The notes under the pieces are model-generated. The model saw only the letters and a program-made list of their open reading frames with translations. It did not search any database and had not been told where the DNA came from. A stretch of DNA of 64,000 bases from Hirudinaria manillensis (Eukaryota; Annelida; Clitellata; Hirudinida; Hirudinidae), in contig CM067533.1 of the NCBI GenBank assembly GCA_034509925.1, positions 3,486,535 to 3,550,534 of the forward strand. The letters run 5' to 3'. Shown one piece after another: positions 8,281 through 64,000 of this stretch. The position numbers and the translations under genes were made by a program. The stretch's first letter is position 1, and each line of letters starts with the position of its first letter.

Positions 8281-8389
8281 TCTGAGAGCTGCAGTTGGTT
8301 AGCGATACGAGTATACGTTGTTATCCGGCAAGACGGTCAACATTTTGTTGCTCTAAGTGGCCACATGTACATAAAGCATTTTCTGCTGT

Positions 8390-9715
8390 CACTGCGATGG
8401 AAACGAAGTACAGAGGAAGATCGAGCATTGAATTCCTCCCTACGCATCAATCAGCCTACCGTCAACATCACTCCATCGATACCGCCGTTCTCCGCGTCTT
8501 CTCGGATCTCCTCCGCGGGGGCCTGCGAAGTGTCGCTGCTCGTCCTCCTCGACCTTTCGGCCGCCTTCGACACTGTCGATCACGACATACTCCTCCAACG
8601 ACTTGAGAAGTCTTTCGGCTTCGTGGACTGCGTCCTTGAGTGGTTCCGGTCTTACCTCGCCGATCGTTCCTTCTGCGTCGGCCATGGTAAAATCGCGTCG
8701 CCCAACGCCCTGACAACCTGCGGTGTCCCCCAAGGCTCCGTCCTTGGCCCGCTCCTTTTCTCTATGTACACAGCGGAATTTGAAAGCATCATCCACTCTC
8801 ACGAACTCCTCTGTCACATGTATGCCAACGACATACAAGTCTACGGTCACTGTAAACCCAACCATACCGAGGCCCTCTCTTCCAGGATGTCCCTATTTGT
8901 GAGGGCCATCAGCGACTGGATGTTCAGCAGCCGTCTGCAACTGAACAGCAGCAAAACTGAGGTGATATGGAATTCCTCGCCCAAACGCGCCTCGGTGCTT
9001 CCTTCCAGCCCGGTCTCCATCTGTTCTGATGTAATCTACCCCGTACTTTCCGTCCGCAACCTGGGGATCTGGCTGGACTCAGACTGCTCCATGAGCACAC
9101 ACATCACAATATCTCCCTTTGTTGCTTTGCGTCCCTCAGGAAGATTCGCAGCATCGCCTCTCCTCTCTTCTTCGAGGTCAGGAAGAGCATCGTCACAGCC
9201 CTGTTTTTCTCGAGGATTGATTATGGAAATGCTACGCTTGCGGGTCTCCCGTCCTGTCGCCTGGAGTATATGCGGAGAGTTATCAATATGGCAGCCATGC
9301 TCATCTTCAGCAAGAGGAAGTACGACCATGTGTCGCCACTCCTTTACGAGCTTCACTGGTTGCGCATTCACCAGCGCATCGACTATAAGATCGCCACGCT
9401 GGTCTTCAAATCGCTCCTGGGCTGCTCACCGTCCTACCTGCCATTCACCCGAAATGCACATCTCCAGGGCAGAAGCGGCCTCAGGTCCACATCCAGAGGC
9501 TCCCTCTTTTGTCCTTACGCCAATCGCGCTACTCTCGACGGCAGGTCCATCGACGTCGTTGGCCCGAGGACATGGAACAGATTAGATCCCGCAGTGACGA
9601 CCTCAGACCCAGCCGGCTTCCACTCCGCCCTGAAGATCTTCCTCTTCAGGGAGTCACCCTCACTCCCCTCAGTGGCCTTGAAGTCCACCGGACATACGCC
9701 ACTCTAACGAACCGA
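8390..9715 (+). mobile_element. 5'-truncated LINE (CR1/L2-like group) reverse transcriptase fragment
   Basis: The reverse transcriptase starts mid-domain: FLPTHQSAYR precedes LLVLLDLSAAFDTVDHDIL, GVPQGSVLGPLLF and HMYANDIQVYG, where YAND replaces the usual YADD. These are motifs of the CR1/L2/jockey groups. Frame changes at about 8510 and 9130 break the ORF. The C-terminal part is read from 9140 to 9707, ends in a TAA, and shows the usual VVGPRTWNRL signature. The element ends directly in an ATT array at 9716, as L2-like elements do. It is 5'-truncated and inactive. Confidence 0.88.
8530..9707 (+). pseudogene. LINE reverse transcriptase ORF, frameshifted and truncated
   Basis: This is the coding remnant of the LINE above. 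One open stretch (8530-9120) carries the palm motifs LSAAFDTVDH, PQGSVLGPLLF and YANDIQVYG. After a frameshift near 9130 the C-terminal part continues (FFSRIDYGNATLAGLP, then the segment up to TAA at 9705-9707). The endonuclease, ORF1 and N-terminal third are missing. Its GC content is far above the surroundings, as expected for a transposed copy. Confidence 0.8.
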
Positions 9716-11154
<1,439 letters not shown>

Positions 11155-55083: not shown

Positions 55084-55108
55084 TACACCGCCGAAAGCAA
55101 TAAAACTT
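55084..55108. repeat. 25-bp direct repeat, left flank of the retroelement block
   Basis: TACACCGCCGAAAGCAATAA plus CTT-ending bases is identical to 61674-61698. It sits exactly where the retroelement sequence begins, so it is read as a target-site duplication of the whole block. Confidence 0.75.
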
Positions 55109-57000
55109 TACCGGGTTCATGATGCGTTTCTCCACCCAAGCGTACACGACGAAATGGGTTCCTCTGCAGGTCGGGATAGCCATGGGGTGTGCGATTTCTC
55201 CGACCCTGTTCGTACTGGCGATGCAGATCCTACTGAAGGCAGTTGGGTCCGACATTCCAGAGGCGCACATTAGTGAGGGTGTGTACATGCCTCCAATAAA
55301 GGCATTCATCGACGACACCACCCTGATTATGAATAGGAAGCGAATCGTTCAGGAAACCCTGGACAAGCTGGACGACTTGCTAGGATGGTGTCGTATGGCC
55401 TTCAAACCTGCGAAGTCCAGGAGTCTCTCTTTGGTTAGAGGGAAAATTTGCAGGAACGCGTTCTTCGAGGTGGCGGGACAACGAATCCCCACAGTATCCG
55501 AGGAGCCTGTGAAGAGCCTAGGAAGGATGTTTGACGACTCGCTCACCGACAAGAGCATGAAGAACGCCATAGTCACGCAAACCAGTAAGGGGCTGCAAGC
55601 GATCGAGGCGGCGCCGCTCCAGGGTCGTTTCAAAGTGTGGCTTTTGCAGTTTGTGCTCCTGCCCAGACTCCTTTGGCCTTTGACCATCTATTGGTGTATC
55701 GGCGGTCGAGGGGTTAGAGAGGAAAATCAATCGGCACACCAGGACATGGTTGGGTTTACCTCCAGCATTGTCGTCGGTTGCCCTCTACAGCAGGAGCGCG
55801 AGCCACTTAGACTGCCACTTAGGTCCATCGTGGAGGAGTACAAACTCTCCAAAATCCGAACGCAGTGGATGCTCAATAACTCCGCGGACAACAGGATCCG
55901 TGAAGTTAATCCACTGCTCAGATCTGGAAAGAAGTTCCGAGCGCAGAAAGAGATCGGCGAGTCAGTAAATGTACTGATGTTCGAAGAAGTGAGAGGTCCT
56001 ATCCAGACAGACCGTCACGCAGTGGGATGGAACCACTTCCAAAAATGGTCCCAGTCCAGCTCATCGACTAGAGGTGCGATGATTGGCCAGGAGAGGAGGC
56101 GGAAAGAGGAACAAGATCGAGTCACAAAGGCCGTACAGTTAGCACAACAGGGTAAGTGGACAACTTGGGAGGATGTGATCCAACGGTCCCTTACCTGGAG
56201 CGATTTTTGGAAGTTGTCCCCGCTCCGGCTGGCCTTTGCGGTAAGATCGATTTATGATCAATTGCCTTCCAAGGACAATTTAAGGAGGTGGGGGTTAGTA
56301 GAAGACGCCAAGTGTAGACTCTGCGACGGAGCCGAGACACTGCATCATGTGCTCAGCAACTGCACATACGCCCTTGCCCATGGTCGGTATACGTGGCGAC
56401 ACAATCAGGTCCTTCGAGAAGTGTGTGAGGCCACCAAAGCAGCAGTAACCAGAGCAAACTCGCGCGCAATCTCCAAGCAGCGGAAGATTTACTTCCTGCG
56501 CGAGGGCCACGCACACCTCTGCAGAAAGCGATGTAAAACGCCAAGAAAGGACATCCTTGCGGAGGCAAACGATTGGACAGTCGCAGCCGACTTAGAAGGA
56601 ATGAGGCACTATCCCCAGGTGCTGATTGAGAGTGGCAAGAGGCCAGATATGGTGTTGATGTCACCGTCGTCAGATGCCATCATTTTGGTGGAGTTGACGG
56701 TCCCATGGGAGGACAGAATGCAATATAGCAATGCGCTGAAAGCGGAAAAGTATGCAGATCTGGCGGTGGACCTGGAAGCGAAAGGGTTCAGAGTTGACCT
56801 CTTCCCAATAGAAGTTGGCGCAAGGGGCATTCCTCACGAAAATAGGCCTATCTAGCCGAGAAAGAACGAAGACGATGACAAAGATGTCTGAAGCGGCGGA
56901 GGCAGCTTCGTTCTGGATCTGGCAAATGAGAGGTAAGGAAACATCTTCGGATGCCACAGCGAAAGGACCGGAGAAAGCCGCCGATCTCCGGTCAGAATAA
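55109..57000 (+). mobile_element. 5'-truncated R2/HERO-type retrotransposon, family 1
   Basis: A GC-rich ORF (55119-56855, then one frame change and 56826-57000) covers the later reverse transcriptase and the C-terminus. GIAMGCAISPTLFVLAMQ and AFIDDTTL (FIDD at the active site) come first, then TVSEEPVKSLGR. A CCHC knuckle (CRLCDGAETLHHVLSNC) and a restriction-like endonuclease (RPDMVLMSPS, IILVELTVPW) follow, as in R2/R4/HERO elements. The fingers and N-terminus are missing. It is a diverged relative of the minus-strand copy at 57807-61655. The frame change at about 56825 and the truncation make it inactive. Confidence 0.88.
55119..56855 (+). pseudogene. Reverse transcriptase / restriction-like endonuclease ORF (partial)
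   Basis: This 578-codon open stretch begins inside the palm domain at the motif matching NGFVMRFST of the minus copy. It ends early at 56855 because of a frame change. The remaining C-terminal tail (FLTKIGLSSRERTK) continues in the next frame to 57000. Domain order is palm, thumb, CCHC knuckle at about codon 417, and the PD-(D/E)xK-type nuclease at about codons 506-530. Confidence 0.85.
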
Positions 57001-57434
57001 ATCCACCGAAGCAATTCATCGCCCGAGAGGCGCGGAGCCGGTGACGGAAATGTCTGTTACCGCGTGCCGATGCAAAGAAAATTTAAAGCCCAAGTCGATA
57101 CTGTTGGGCGCAGGGATGACGGAAAGAAGGCCACTGAAAGTCGTAGGGGCTAGGTGGCGTCGCTTCAGCGACTGAGTGCAGCGACGAAAGAAGCCAACGA
57201 GAGCTTTCAGTAGTCGCTCCAGTCTGGCACGTGATGGCATAAAGAGGCCAATGAGAACCTTCCAAAGCCTAAGCTTTTGAGTCCGCACATGGAAACCGAC
57301 AGGGACATCCGGCTGATCACCGGATGCGGCCCACCCCCGGAGAACGTCAGGGGTTTCAAAGGGCCGAAACGTTCGAAGATGGGGGACCTTCTCTGAGGAT
57401 CCCTGTCGGAAAGCTCCGAGGAGGAGTTTCCAGC
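57001..57434 (+). mobile_element. 5' end of a second family-1 copy, abutting the 3' end of the first
   Basis: Directly after the stop of the plus-strand element comes sequence whose plus strand resembles the 5' end of the minus-strand element. It has a GGAGCC..GACGGAAATG start region and then RDIRLITGCGPPPENVRG against RDIRLINGCGPAPESVRI. It is thus the beginning of another copy in the same orientation, cut off by the TA array at 57435. Confidence 0.7.
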
Positions 57435-57457
57435 ATATATATATATATATATATATA
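57435..57457. repeat. (AT)n array where two 5'-end fragments meet
   Basis: A short uninterrupted AT run. Left of it a plus-oriented 5' fragment ends; right of it a minus-oriented 5' fragment ends. Confidence 0.9.
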
Positions 57458-57806
57458 TTGATAGAAACTCTTGAACGAGCGTTCTGACAGGGATCTTCAG
57501 AGGAATGGCCCCTTCTACGAGTGTTTCGGCCCTGAATCCTGACACTCTCGGGGGCTGGGCCGCATCCGTTGATCAAGCGGATGTCCCTGCCAGATACTTT
57601 CTTCCGATAACCAGACAACGACTTCCGACAAACAAACAATACTCGCACCGCCATTTTACGAAAAATTCCGCGAGGGCTCCGCCGTCCGAAAAACCGTCAA
57701 AGTAGCCATTACGGCACTTCTTATATCACTTTGGTGTGAATGCCGTCCGGGGTGTCTCTTTCCTGGTCTTACACTGGAGTCCCTGTTTTGGTGGAGTGGA
57801 CAGGGA
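57456..57806 (-). mobile_element. 351-bp 5'-end copy of family-2 element (downstream repeat)
   Basis: Identical to 61305-61655 except for one visible base (GACAGGGAT versus GACAAGGAT). In element sense it holds the 5' UTR and first ~66 codons. It lies right after the 3' end of the full-length minus copy, head to tail. Confidence 0.93.
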
Positions 57807-57831
57807 CGACTAGCCTCGCCGTGTCTGAGGC

Positions 57832-60800
57832 TTACCTTCGGTCCTTCGTTGTCCAGATCCAGTGAGAAGCCGATTCTGCGGACTCGGCTATTTTCTGGAC
57901 GAACTGTTTGGTTTGCCTGTTTGAAAGGCCTATCTTCCTGAGAAAGGCGTATGTAGACTTGCCTACCAGCCCTCTCGCTCCGACTTCTATTGGTAACACA
58001 CGGGCGCTATAACCTTTCCCCTCTAAATCCATCCTCAGCTCTTCATAACGGTCGCTCTTCAGAGCATTGCTGACATCAATTCGGTCCTCCCATGGGACCG
58101 TCAGCTCTACGATAATGACGGAATCGGTTGCTGCCGACGCCAGCACCAGATCAGGCCGCTTGCCGCTCTCTTGTAGCACCTGGTGGTAGTGCCTTTCTCC
58201 CTGCAGGTCTGCCGCAACTGTCCAGTCTTTGGCTGTGGACAGCAAGTCCCTCATTTGGGCCATGTTCCTTTTGCGGTGCTGTGTTGAGCCCTCTCTTAAG
58301 AAGTACATTCTTCTTGGTGCCGCGATTTCTCGGGCATTCGCCTGGGAGCATGCCGTCTTAGCCGCTTCGACCACGACCTGCAGGACTTGGTTATGTCGCC
58401 AAGTGTAGCGACCGTGAGCAAGGGCGTACGTGCATGATGAAAGCACGTGCCGGAGTGACTGTTCACCTCCGCAGAGCTCGCAGCTGGCGTCTTGAACCAT
58501 CCCCCACTTCTGTAAGTTGGACCCGGAAGGGAGCACGTCGTAGACCGACCTTATGAGGAATGCCAAGCGGAGGGGAGACTTTTTCCAAATGTCTTTCCAT
58601 GTGATGGCTCTTTGGATGACGTCTTCCCAGGTTGTCCACTGTCCTTGCTGGCTTTGCTGCACAGCCAGCGCAATCCTTTCGGTCTCCATCTCTCGCCTTC
58701 TCTCTTGGATTATCATGGCGGCTTTTGTCTGCACATTCGCTGTGGACCATCTTGTAAAATGGTTCCATCCGACTCCATGGCGGTCTACCTGCACGGGTCC
58801 TCTTTTCTCCTCGAAGGCTAGGATTGCCTCGGATTCCTCAATTTCTTCCTGGGCTCTGAATTTCCTTCCTGAGCGGAGTTGCGGCATGACGTCGCGGACC
58901 CTGCTGTCACTGGAGTTGTTGAGCGACCATTGAGTTCTGATTTTGCTAATTTTATATTCTTCAACGATGGATCTGAGGGGCAGCCTCAACCGTGTGCATC
59001 TGATGTACAGGGTGATCGACGATAGCGAAGGCAGCAACCCGAACCATTTCCTCGTACACCGATTTATTTTCCTTTCCATCTCTTCTACCGACTGCAGGCC
59101 TATTTAGTAGATGGTCAATGGCCACAGCAGTCTTGGTAGCAGGACGAACTGCAGGAGCCAGACTTTGAATCTGCCCCGTAGCGGCGATTCTGCAATCGCT
59201 CTCAGACCGTCGGTCATCCTACTGACAGTGGCTGCCTCCTGGTTTTTGTCGCGGAGGGACACGTCGAAAACTCTTCCCAAGCTCTTTACTGGCTCTTCTG
59301 AGACCGTCGGAATGTGTTGTCCTCCGGTGGTGAAGCACACGTTGCTGCGAACTCTCCCTCTTGTGAGAGAAAGACTCCGGGATTTTGCGGGCTTCAGAGC
59401 CATGCGACACCATTGGAGTAGATCATTGAGCTTGTCAAGGGCTCTTTGGACAATCTGCTGCCTGTTTAGAACGATGGTGGTGTCGTCCATGAAAACCTTT
59501 ACTGAAGGCATAAACACCCCTTTACCCAAACGCATCTCGGGGATCTCAGCTCCTACTGCATTTAGTACGACTTGAATGGCAAGCACAAACAGCGATGGAG
59601 AAATGGCACATCCCATGGCTATGCCGATCTGCAGAGGGATCCAACACGTGGTGCAAACTTTTGTGGAAAAACGCATCACGAAACCGTTGAAGTATTCCTT
59701 GAGTACCTCAATCACCGTTCCAGGAACATGGTGGATCTCTAACGCCTTCCAGAGGAGTTGATGGGGCACCGATCCATAGGCGTTGGCCAGGTCGAGCCAC
59801 ACGACGTGTAGACTGAGTTGGTTCCTTTTTGCGTTCTGGATCGCCTCCCATATCATTGCGGTGTGCTCAATGCACCCCGGCACACCTGGGATGCCTCCCT
59901 TTTGAACTGCTGTGTCGATGTACTTGTTTGTTATCATGAACGTAGTCAGCCTTGCCGCTAGACATGAGAAATAGATTTTCCCTTCGACATTCAACAACGA
60001 AATAGGCCTGAACTGGTTTATGTGCTTAGATTCCTTTTCTTTCGGAATGTACACACCTTCTGCTACTTTCCATTCGTTGTTGACTGTGGCATTGGCCCAG
60101 GTGGAAACTATTATTGTGTGGAGCAGCTTGAGCGTTCTTGGGCATCTCTTGTAAAGCAGATATGGGATCCCGTTGGGCCCGGGCGCGGAGCAGTTTCTTG
60201 CCTTCTTCACGACTCCCTTAACCTCCTCGATCGATGGAGCTGCCTCTTGAAATGGATGATCCGGGAAAGGTGCTTCCAGAATCTCAGTTCTCTGAGGAAG
60301 CGGTGTGCTGCGAAGAGCATCGGTGTACGTCTTGGTGAGGTGTGCTTCTAGCTCCGTCTTTGAAGCAACAAGAGTCCCTGATTTTGGTGGTTCGAGCAGT
60401 GACCTCCCGTAGCGATACGGATCTCTGAAAAATTCTTGTCTTGCTCGCCTTCTCTCGTACCTCTTTTGTCTCGCCCTTTCTACTTGACGGAGGGTGTTGA
60501 TTCTTCCTTTGACCTACTCCCACAGCACCATCAAACCGGCCTTTTCGGCCTCACCCGAACTCTTCCATCTGCTGCGAAGGACCCTTTTCTCGCGCTTCAA
60601 ATTTCGTAGCTCGATCTGCCGCCTGGATTCTTTGGGTTTTGTGGGGCGCTTGACTTCGACAGACCCGAACTTCTCTAGGCAGGAAGCGTAGATGAAATCG
60701 GAGAAGCTCTTCATAGTGCCTTCTCTTTTCATCACTCTCTTGAGGCCGGTTGCGAGATTGCCATCCAGTTCTTGCCACACTTTCATGTCTTTGCTTGGAG

Positions 60801-61503
60801 GAAATTTGATCCTTTGCCTGACTGGGTCTGATGCTGGAAGAGAGACTCGAACCAACTCGGGACTGTGGTGTGCCTCCTGCCCGGTGTCGTTCGGCGTTTT
60901 ATGTGTCGGCTCTTGCGCGACAGGACGCTGTCTCTCAATGCAACCCATTTTTGTCTGATGGATCTTCATTCCCTTCCTTGAAGCAAAAGATTTCCCGCAA
61001 ATATACCTGCTGCCTGGCGCGCCATTGTCCAGGGCAGTCCTAAAATCGGTGATTGTTATAACAGGCCGGTCGAAATCCGTAGGTCCAGTGATGGGTTCAT
61101 CATTCTCCCTCTCCTTTCGGTAGGAACCCTGAGGGCATATTTCAGTAGTCGTTGAGGTAGCAGAAGTGATTTGTCGCACCTGACTTGCTGGGCCATGGGC
61201 GACCTCGCCTTTCCGAGATGCCACCGGTCTTTCCCGGTCGTCACCGGTCTTTCCTGGTTGTCTCTCGGTCTTTTCCCGAGCGTCAAATGGCCAACGCCTT
61301 GGTGTATTGATAGAAACTCTTGAACGAGCGTTCTGACAAGGATCTTCAGAGGAATGGCCCCTTCTACGAGTGTTTCGGCCCTGAATCCTGACACTCTCGG
61401 GGGCTGGGCCGCATCCGTTGATCAAGCGGATGTCCCTGCCAGATACTTTCTTCCGATAACCAGACAACGACTTCCGACAAACAAACAATACTCGCACCGC
61501 CAT
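57832..61503 (-). pseudogene. Single retroelement ORF with two in-frame stops
   Basis: The three open stretches 60515-61503, 59105-60511 and 57832-59103 are in one frame, so the breaks are point stops rather than frameshifts. The second stop falls at a residue occupied by Trp in the plus-strand relative (LTIYW). I read this as recent inactivation. Stop-codon readthrough cannot be excluded from sequence alone. Confidence 0.8.
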
Positions 61504-61655
61504 TTTACGAAAAATTCCGCGAGGGCTCCGCCGTCCGAAAAACCGTCAAAGTAGCCATTACGGCACTTCTTATATCACTTTGGTGTGAATGCCGTCCGGG
61601 GTGTCTCTTTCCTGGTCTTACACTGGAGTCCCTGTTTTGGTGGAGTGGACAGGGA
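61305..61655 (-). repeat. 351-bp 5'-end copy (upstream repeat)
   Basis: The genuine 5' end of the full-length minus element. Its partner is at 57456-57806. Its outer edge joins the TA array at 61656. Confidence 0.93.
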
Positions 61656-61673
61656 TATATATATATATATATA
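61656..61673. repeat. (TA)n array at the 5' edge of the minus element
   Basis: A short TA run between the element 5' end and the right-hand 25-bp direct repeat. Confidence 0.9.
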
Positions 61674-61698
61674 TACACCGCCGAAAGCAATAAAACTT
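61674..61698. repeat. 25-bp direct repeat, right flank of the retroelement block
   Basis: Identical to 55084-55108. Together they bracket 6.6 kb of retroelement sequence. Confidence 0.75.
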
Positions 61699-62271: not shown

Positions 62272-62566
62272 TGTAATAACCCGGGGTCCTCAAACTAATT
62301 ATAGAAGGTCAGGTTTATTGAAAGTTGTCAGATGGCTTGGAAGATGCACGATGCTTCAAATGTCTAAGTCTTGAAATCTGCTGTTCTCTAATTCTCGCTC
62401 TACTTTCCGAGATAAATCCATTTGTCAAGGTACATAACCAAAGAGTCTGAATAGCACCAATTAATTCTCAAATTATATTGCCACTAAATTTAATTAATTA
62501 TTAAATTAATTAATCGGCAATATAATTTTAATTATTATTCAATTTATTGGATCTAGGGATCCAACA
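62272..62566 (-). mobile_element. 3' LTR (295 bp) of a pol-less LTR retrotransposon
   Basis: TGTAATAACCCGGGGTCCTC at 62272 recurs exactly at 63939. The other edge, ATCCAACA at 62566, is followed by a pyrimidine block. In element sense (minus) the LTR is TGTTGG..TTACA and contains AATAAA. Confidence 0.88.
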
Positions 62567-63856
62567 CTGCCCCCTCCTTAAATCTGTTCGTCCCGAACAG
62601 ACATCTATTCCCATTTTCATTTTTACTCTAGGAATAGGATCCGATCTTCCAACAATCTCATGGCTGCAAATCCCAGATCCATTTGCTTTGCCATCTTCTG
62701 GGATTTCTGCTTCCCCCCTTTTACTTCTGCGTCCCGCAAGTTTCAGTCGCGGAACATCGCCATTTCTATGCTCAACCTCCTGCTCCACCATGTCGCCAGA
62801 TCTCAGACTCTCTACAGGATCACCTGCTCCATTTTTCTTGCTAGGCACTCTCCCGAAATCCCGAGCACTCCCTTCTGTTATTTCCAATGGAGCCGAAACA
62901 TCAGCTGGTAAATCCATGGGCTGTTCTGTAGACTCCACTTGTTCCACCATCAACTTCGTGTGCTTCACTGGTAACTCAATGTCCTTCATCGGTGACTCCT
63001 CGGGCGGTACTAATAACTTCGCAGACTCTGTCGGGAAATCCATTGGCTGTTCTGTAGACTCTACTTGTTCCACCATCAAATCCGTGCGCTCCACCGGCAA
63101 CTCCACGTGACTCATCAGTAACTCCTCGGGCTGCACCAACAACTCCACATGATCCACCGGCAATCCCACAGGCTCCTCCGAAAGTTCCACTTGCTCCACT
63201 AAAACCTCCGTGAGCTCTCTGGGCCCTGCTGACGACTCGACCTGATCTGATAACTCTATGGGCGCCAACGTCGAGTTCTCTAAGTCTGCCATCACGCACA
63301 GAGTTTCTGGAGACACGCACGCACTGTGGTTGGATGTGCCTTCTAATGACTCCATCCCAATGCTGCCAGAAACGGTACTTGGAACATCAGAACTCTTCTC
63401 AGTAGAGTTTCCACCAGAAACCAAAGAGGCATCCTGACGCGGAATCGCTGTGTTTTCCAAATCGCCCCTAATAGTCCTCCTAGAGTTCTCTGCAAACTTT
63501 CTCCGCCACTTACTATATTCGGACTCGAATTCAAAAGAACCAACAGGACTCTTCTCGGTAGAGTTTTCACCCGAAACCAGCGAGACATCCTGACATGGAA
63601 TCGCTGTGTTTTCCAAATCACCCCTAATAGTCCTCCTCAACTCATCTACGGACTTTTTCATAAAATCAAGAAATTCTTCCATTTTTTTATGGGATGGATT
63701 CTCGAATTCGTATTCCTCTGGGTCATGGCCATTCTCTGTCAGCCATGTCCCAAGTCGCTCTCGTATCTCAGCTTTCGTGCCTTTCCAATCCAGGCCACGA
63801 TCTCTCAATTCTTGTCTCAATCGAGGCACGTACAATTCATCCAAGTACTTCGGCAT
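62528..63856 (-). CDS. SAP-domain Gag-like protein of the LTR element, 442 aa
   Basis: The only ORF of the element, starting 62 bp after its primer-binding site. Residues ~8-42 (VPRLRQELRDRGLDWKGTKA) form a SAP-type DNA-binding motif, seen at the start of Gag-like proteins in many invertebrate LTR elements. The rest is acidic and repetitive. TIRGDLENTAIP..QD..LVSG is present twice, and VEQVESTEQPMD twice within a Val-Glu-Leu-rich stretch. No zinc knuckle, protease, reverse transcriptase or integrase follows. The last ~13 codons lie inside the 3' LTR, so the stop is supplied by the LTR. The intact frame implies recent activity or selection. Confidence 0.75.
   Translation of the reverse strand: MPKYLDELYVPRLRQELRDRGLDWKGTKAEIRERLGTWLTENGHDPEEYEFENPSHKKMEEFLDFMKKSVDELRRTIRGDLENTAIPCQDVSLVSGENSTEKSPVGSFEFESEYSKWRRKFAENSRRTIRGDLENTAIPRQDASLVSGGNSTEKSSDVPSTVSGSIGMESLEGTSNHSACVSPETLCVMADLENSTLAPIELSDQVESSAGPRELTEVLVEQVELSEEPVGLPVDHVELLVQPEELLMSHVELPVERTDLMVEQVESTEQPMDFPTESAKLLVPPEESPMKDIELPVKHTKLMVEQVESTEQPMDLPADVSAPLEITEGSARDFGRVPSKKNGAGDPVESLRSGDMVEQEVEHRNGDVPRLKLAGRRSKRGEAEIPEDGKANGSGICSHEIVGRSDPIPRVKMKMGIDVCSGRTDLRRGQCWIPRSNKLNNN
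62567..62582 (-). other. Polypurine tract
   Basis: In element sense, AAGGAGGGGGCAG directly precedes the 3' LTR, as needed to prime plus-strand synthesis. It also overlaps the end of the ORF. Confidence 0.75.
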
Positions 63857-63937: not shown

Positions 63938-63938
63938 T

Positions 63939-64000
63939 GTAATAACCCGGGGTCCTCAAACTAATTATAGAAGGTCAGGTTTATTGAAAGTTGTCAGATG
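63939..64000 (-). mobile_element. 5' LTR (partial, cut by window edge)
   Basis: The last 62 bp of the LTR in element sense are identical to 62272-62333. The rest lies beyond base 64000. Confidence 0.88.

Follow-up and report, generated by a model that had tools for sequence, protein, structure and literature searches.

A terminal repeat of the unit's own 5' region in two R2-group LINE families of Hirudinaria manillensis, and a proposed internal start of reverse transcription

A stretch of 64,000 nucleotides from the annelid Hirudinaria manillensis (assembly GCA_034509925.1, contig CM067533.1, positions 3,486,535 to 3,550,534 of the forward strand; called the window below) contains copies of two families of retrotransposons, A and B, which their predicted proteins place in the R2 group of long interspersed nuclear elements (LINEs). 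In both families the copies continue past the apparent 3' end of the element into the 5' region of the same unit. At first sight this tail is a surplus 5' end, but it is where copies of the element normally terminate on the 3' side, and the terminal repeat so formed looks to be built in. We consider it likely that A and B carry a signal for recognition by the reverse transcriptase (RT) near the 5' end of the unit, and that reverse transcription starts at this internal signal on an RNA of more than one unit.

In the window, family A is represented on the minus strand by a single 3,849-bp repeat unit, which runs from 61655 down to 57807. Its stop codon (57832-57834) is followed by a short 3' untranslated region (UTR) of about 25 bp (57807-57831) and then, at 57806-57456, by the first 351 bp of the unit once more. 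This pseudo-LTR-like (LTR, long terminal repeat) tail is identical to the 5' copy of the repeat (61305-61655, minus strand) at 350 of 351 positions, and a 300-nt block recurs with 100% identity at a spacing of 3,849, which is far beyond chance. Family B lies on the plus strand. Its copy is 5'-truncated inside the RT and starts at 55109; it continues past its 3' end through sequence of its own family's 5' region and reaches as far as 57436. The B stop codon is near 56998-57000 when judged against an intact array copy (in the window copy the open reading frame, ORF, is already closed at 56855), and the B terminal repeat, which corresponds to the 5' region of a 3,972-bp unit, occupies 57001-57436. 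An AT run at 57437-57457 separates the ends of A and B. A preliminary description of this DNA had reported both junctions and the AT run at which the two fragments stop, and these observations hold. It had also regarded the A copy as full-length; one complete unit is present, and the left end at 61655 is atypical as an element start. The fragments, which it had described as isolated 5' ends after a 3' end, are instead the normal 3' ends.

The composite of A and B is bounded by a 25-bp direct repeat, TACACCGCCGAAAGCAATAAAACTT, read by eye at 55084-55108 and 61674-61698 (plus strand), the probable target site duplication of the B insertion. TA runs are present on both sides of A (57437-57457 at the B 3' end and 61656-61675 beyond the other end of A), as the left and right halves of its presumed insertion target. 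Because of these two features, it is most likely that B inserted first and that A then inserted into the TA run behind B. The meeting of the two families at one TA array, to which the preliminary description had given a possible part in the mechanism, is therefore best read as nesting. The window B copy is about 3% diverged from an array unit of its family. In comparisons of the window A copy with other A units, 16-50 substitutions were counted over about 1,956 bp. Neither has an uninterrupted frame; that of A is broken into open pieces at 61503-60514, 60210-59104 and 59079-57832.

The host genome (148 Mb in 23 contigs) was searched for further copies, with only about 40 best-scoring copies per query, a sample in which old copies are under-represented. 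A 20-mer of TTAGG repeats occurs in this genome at 5 places and its reversed control at 3, which says nothing about the host. Among the loci found with queries holding the tail or its start (high-scoring segment pairs shorter than 40 bp being dropped), 24 A copies have their visible 3' end at unit position 351-355 and 27 B copies have theirs within 3 bp of window position 57436, the window copies being included in both counts; beyond these points the flanks differ. To avoid the bias of tail-holding queries, the ORF alone was used in a second search. With windows of 30 and 90-100 bp, all 40 best-scoring A ORF ends, which belong to 33 insertions, show the unit start and/or the tail end where the layout predicts it: the exact 16-mer of the unit start is present in 37 and the tail end in at least 32, a lower bound as 100 of the 128 tail-end places were available. 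Eight A ORF ends are without a listed tail end; six of them are inner array units and one (L007) ends at 351. The 40 best B matches comprise 16 in loci already examined, 7 inner array units that were not read individually and 17 that were read. Sixteen of these 17 finish at GGAGTTTCCAG(C/T)AT, within a few bases of the end of the window copy, and continue with a C and then with flanks that differ. In the remaining one (L097) the tail is broken by a sequence resembling the element with a SAP-domain ORF at 62.5-63.9 kb of the window. Eight more places were picked by the tail-end word and hence hold it by construction: five are short copies that start inside the tail (L070, L071, L072, L074 and L076) and three are older unit-to-tail junctions (L073, L075 and L077). 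No element sequence was displayed for loci L080, L087, L088 and L107, and L082 is partly N.

The genome-wide copies of both families thus support the suggestion, made in the preliminary description, that the junction is a built-in feature comparable to the pseudo-LTRs of Penelope elements; a search of the genome for the junction had been proposed there, and not one of the 40 best A ORF ends lacks the repeat. An assembly error as the source of the junction is unlikely, because many insertions with different flanks share it. The short A copy L076 shows the final nine bases of its 3' end twice (CTATCAATTCTATCAATA, near 404-430), as though reverse transcription had begun again there.

If translation starts at the first in-frame ATG, the 3' end of the copies falls inside the frame of the unit. 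In A, the first ATG is at unit position 153 and the end at 351 is 199 nt into the frame; in B, the end ...CCAGCAT is 113 nt past the first in-frame ATG, and another ATG follows about 14 bp after the end. For annotation this means that the element has to be given a 3' end within the 5' part of its unit, and that the whole ORF is present only in copies longer than one unit.

Such longer copies exist as tandem arrays. The unit-start 16-mer of A occurs at 87 places in 76 clusters, nine of which hold two or more unit starts at a spacing of about 3,849 bp (eight with two starts and one with four) and therefore consist of one or three full units plus the tail. The window copy starts at position 1; the other eight continue upstream. 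Seven of them reach about 32, 194, 245, 478, 782, 1,152 and 1,222 bp into the next upstream unit, and the four-start array on C9 extends at least 1,500 bp further. Other A left ends are found at unit positions 457, about 441, 440, 433, 368, about 352 (by eye), 328, 317, 195 and 100, with more lying deeper in the body, so that the left ends are scattered on both sides of the unit junction with no pile-up at one base. The G that stands two bases upstream of the unit start in the junction is present at 85 of the 87 places, not all of which were read; the two others are a point-mutated junction (L078) and the window copy, the left end of which, at 61655, is not a typical element start. What had been taken for a second element start at position 1, on C6, was rejected, being the point-mutated junction. 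Four left ends (L108-L111) lie within 25 bp (unit 433-457) and may mark a site of preferred stopping or have arisen by chance; the idea of one shared RNA 5' end there was rejected, as the four sit at different bases. One A copy (L086/L008, C11 2873233-2877099) is about one unit long, running from position ~352 to 351; its tail carries an insertion of 18 bp, and the copy lies in an ATATA repeat.

The arrays of family B have a spacing of 3,972 bp. The array on C2 has four copies of the tail (three full units and a partial one) and lies inside a 25-bp duplication (C2:4048802 and 4065000); it is preceded by an inverted, tail-first piece of B. At its start (L063/L079, C2 ~4048825-4049852), a 69-bp plus-strand piece is followed by the inverted piece with the tail end outward, as if both DNA ends had served as primers at the tail signal. 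The array on C4 consists of 680 bp plus six full units and measures 24,512 bp in total. The units within an array are identical or almost so: three units on C2 have 0 differences in 3,582 bp and 0 in 2,078 bp with the fourth, and the A units on C9 differ by 0-1 substitution and 0-1 gap in 3,456 bp. Crossing-over of one full copy would not be expected to leave a truncated unit on the left side of full ones. This observation implies that the template, or the series of templates, of these insertions spanned more than one unit.

In array copies the protein is encoded by one open frame, with 1,237 codons in A and 1,232 in B, or about 1,220 amino acids from the first ATG; the uninterrupted A frame is in the C9 array. 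Pfam searches with pieces of the window identify an RT domain (RVT_1, E 9.8e-24), which in the A copy is on the minus strand at 59104-60210, and in both A and B a zinc knuckle (zf-RVT, E 1.5e-07 each) downstream of it. Compared with solved structures in the PDB, the RT matches the R2 protein (1.8e-15), RT chain 8c8j (1.9e-15) and LINE-1 ORF2 (4.1e-15). As these match alike, R2 and other LINEs cannot be told apart on the RT. The C-terminal part resembles that of R2 and in A lies together with the zinc knuckle at 57832-59079 (minus strand; KRPD...ELTVPWED). A profile of four A and B sequences matches two R2 proteins, including the RPDLVL...ELTVPWED stretch, with a whole-sequence E of 4.8e-06, and R2 is the only significant solved relative of this region; the endonuclease stretch of the profile alone gives E 0.09 against R2. 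We regard these matches as pointing to a C-terminal PD-(D/E)XK endonuclease. The C-terminal regions of A and B are 66% identical. An AlphaFold model of the C-terminal 490 amino acids of A, based on four sequences, is too poor for use (pLDDT 44, pTM 0.29). A possible N-terminal zinc finger is visible by eye as a CxC-x12-H-x5-C motif in a piece that is without a Pfam match. Pfam gave no match for a Myb domain in the A and B proteins scanned, for a GIY-YIG endonuclease in the window proteins, or for an integrase or RNase H in the window A and B proteins. By their RT, zinc knuckle, R2-like C-terminus and single ORF, A and B are thus classified, on predicted proteins, as R2-group LINEs.

A and B have in common a conserved region of ~135 nt that closes the tail and lies just before the 3' end. 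In the window this region is at 57463-57593 (A, 3' copy, minus strand), at 61312-61442 (A, 5' copy, minus strand) and at 57296-57431 (B, plus strand). Of 35 distinct sequences found, 20 were aligned (11 of A type and 9 of B), and a six-helix structure was built by hand, with a closing stem, a hairpin, a long arm and a terminal hairpin; a pseudoknot of helix 3 with helices 4/5 is possible. In this structure 97.8% of 740 cells are paired, and six of the 37 pairs are changed on both sides. When the 3' partners are slid by 1-3 columns as a control, 27-52% are paired and 0-1 pairs are changed on both sides. Shuffles reach the count of double-changed pairs in 4 of 500 cases, and none of the 500 reaches the covariation score. 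An earlier model built by hand, which lacked helix 4, had 93.5% of cells paired and five double-changed pairs. RNAalifold alone recovers the closing stem and the long arm, and the folding of single sequences is only mildly better than that of shuffles (z -2.0 and -1.8). We propose that this covarying domain is the signal that would be recognized by the RT. A hairpin visible by eye at the unit start was considered as a ribozyme and rejected, as Rfam shows no hammerhead or HDV-like ribozyme there.

The insertion sites of the two families differ in character. Among the 23 A 3' flanks displayed, 14 are clear short tandem repeats (of TA, TATAA, TACA and TGGTA types) and the rest are mostly AT-rich. 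The bases that follow the A end TATCAA/TATTAA are TA, except in the short copy L076 and in one inner-sequence variant, and this TA may come from the element or from the target. The flanks of B vary from copy to copy. Among the hallmarks of target-primed insertion, a fixed 3' end and scattered left ends are seen in A and B, and target duplications in part, including 25 bp at the C2 array and 25 bp in the window. In one pentanucleotide repeat (L014/L112, C7 2286841-2286992) two A insertions stand head to head about 150 bp apart, and at L033 (C5 4979023-4982373) two A copies of different age have the same orientation and are 11 bp apart.

By combining these observations, it is possible to describe how a new copy might arise. 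The protein would bind the RNA domain in an RNA that spans more than one unit. It would nick AT-rich DNA, for A often in TA-containing short tandem repeats and for B with little specificity. Target-primed reverse transcription would then start internally, at the 3' edge of the domain, and proceed back through the 5' UTR and through the 3' UTR and ORF of the upstream unit until it stops. The resulting copy would be a partial tandem consisting of a truncated unit, zero or more full units and then positions 1-351. Only copies longer than one unit would hold the whole ORF and could found new ones, as has been proposed for Penelope-like elements. The truncated left units imply a template of more than one unit, and internal initiation on multi-unit RNA is favoured because the footprint of A and B is closely similar to that of PAc, the Penelope-like element of Anolis. 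This template may have been a multimeric transcript or a circle, or may have been made up by a chain of strand transfers. Since uninterrupted frames of both families are present in arrays, the mechanism could be tested in vitro.

Several points weigh against this description. Direct repeats of at least 31 bp flank only three of 18 two-sided stretches, one of them inside a short tandem repeat, and the others are 10 bp or shorter. Four of the six double-changed pairs represent one split of A versus B, one more depends on the distinction of A, older A and B, and one on a single old copy, and the number of further pair types in the RNA domain is below that of shuffles, which reach it in 500 of 500 cases. 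When A and B are compared, the part of the frame near the 3' end shows no clear conservation at the protein level, so that how far the 3' end lies within the ORF depends on the true start codon. The near-identity of units within arrays also fits later unequal crossing-over. Finally, the ends of the transcripts, the multimers and the internal initiation are all deduced from genomic copies, namely the best-scoring ones of a single genome.

Other ways of producing the same arrays have to be compared with internal initiation on a multi-unit RNA. The RNA might be linear and terminally redundant, from position 1 to the second 351, with LTR-like strand transfer generating seamless arrays: on reaching the 5' end of one RNA, the cDNA would pair through the 351-nt redundancy with the 3' repeat of a second RNA and be extended further. 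The spacing of the units is indeed seamless, and the left end of the window copy coincides exactly with position 1, where the hairpin has its base (by eye). This pathway nevertheless seems unlikely, as left ends show no pile-up at position 1 but are spread on both sides of it, and eight of the nine multi-start clusters run on upstream while one stops there.

A circular RNA of 3,849 nt, reverse transcribed from 351 through one or more turns, would give left ends without a single favoured start, as is found, and copy L086/L008, from ~352 to 351, has about the length of one turn. The circle would also fit the identical or nearly identical units of two arrays and the 24.5-kb array, which otherwise needs a very long RNA or later growth. 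On the other hand, Rfam scans up to E = 5 and E = 2 revealed neither a ribozyme nor any other signal for circularisation, the matches obtained being to miRNA or sRNA models far below their gathering scores, and a multimeric array transcript explains the same data without a circle. Rolling-circle synthesis is therefore a tentative alternative to which we give little weight. The stronger claim, that an R2-group LINE writes whole arrays of up to 24.5 kb per insertion from a circular unit-length RNA bound at a signal overlapping the start of the ORF, appears rather doubtful.

Unequal crossing-over after insertion lengthens any array and keeps its units identical, and it may have lengthened some of the arrays described here. 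As their general origin, with the terminal repeat being incidental, it is very improbable, for it does not account for the terminal repeat of single copies that are 5'-truncated and have one tail, and does not give arrays in which the leftmost unit is truncated at differing places. Independent insertions one behind another at TA arrays, or errors of assembly, can practically be dismissed as mimics of a systematic junction: although A is often found in short tandem repeats and two A copies are neighbours on C5, the junction follows all 40 best A ORF ends with locus-specific flanks and is present in two families with different targets, and separate tandem integrations, which the preliminary description had considered, give no reason why truncation in the arrays should be confined to the far left.

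Two other features of the window may be mentioned. A 63-bp perfect direct repeat (62272-62334 and 63938-64000, 1,666 bp apart) surrounds the SAP-domain ORF (62528-63856, minus strand), and together they look like part of another repeat element. A different RVT_1 fragment is at 8365-9585 (plus strand), and a long simple repeat that reads as poly-Ile/Leu is at about 9600-10177.

R2 itself, the element of 28S rDNA, is among the best solved relatives of the A and B RT and also has a structured RNA signal next to its 3' end. R2 copies end with a 3' UTR holding the recognition structure and sit at one rDNA site, whereas the flanks of A and B vary between copies. The Drosophila elements HeT-A, TART and TAHRE form head-to-tail arrays in which the end of one element serves the next, and TART shares repeats between its 5' and 3' UTRs; these are telomeric LINEs with another endonuclease, and their arrays grow by successive additions at the end. 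The A and B proteins presumably resemble those of HERO elements. Together with the target habits of the two families, this makes it probable that A and B are HERO-like. The HERO clade is described as containing many unspecific families and some that are microsatellite-specific (PMC4640811), which compares with the low specificity of B and the frequent short-tandem-repeat targets of A, in addition to the shared R2-group features. Terminal repeats and multi-unit insertions, in contrast, are without mention in the accessible parts of PMC4640811, PMC9004415, PMC10294476, PMC3636483 and PMC7650587. Utopia-1 of Nasonia is stated in the first of these to be 'occasionally inserted in tandem' in U2 genes (PMC4640811); these tandems may be separate insertions. 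Retrozymes, hammerhead-bearing repeats reported to pass through circular RNA (PMC7229834, PMC4918200), differ from A and B in being small, non-autonomous and equipped with a hammerhead ribozyme.

The closest parallel is found in Penelope-like elements, with which A and B share a layout, not a kinship. In PAc, reverse transcription is initiated at an internal position of the RNA that lies 111-118 nt into the ORF, the copies are partial tandems with pseudo-LTRs at AT-rich targets, a multi-unit mRNA has been proposed, and both strands are reportedly extended (PMC11167929). In Adineta vaga, Pen families are described with a pseudo-LTR holding the first 12 codons (22 with the tail), partial tandems and inverted pseudo-LTRs (PMC3846280). 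A and B have the same partial tandem and pseudo-LTR, their copies end a short way into the ORF if it begins at the first in-frame ATG (199 nt for A, 113 nt for B), their targets are AT-rich, and an inverted piece is present at the left end of one B array. The machinery is different: Penelope-like elements have a telomerase-like RT and a GIY-YIG endonuclease, whereas the protein of A and B is R2-like (RVT_1, zf-RVT and C-terminus), and the hammerhead ribozyme of PAc and other Penelope-like elements has no counterpart in A and B among Rfam models. Among the titles and abstract openings listed by searches of the open-access literature, none described an R2-group LINE with terminal repeats or multi-unit insertion; Repbase was outside this search, and prior notice there is possible. 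In the two families described here, an element of R2 type, built differently, has the layout familiar from Penelope elements. Builders of R2-based gene-insertion tools would be interested in an enzyme able to initiate internally and to produce DNA of several units. That an R2-group LINE, whose endonuclease is of another kind, has a footprint closely similar to that of Penelope-like elements points either to convergence or to a mode of replication that is more widespread and perhaps ancient.

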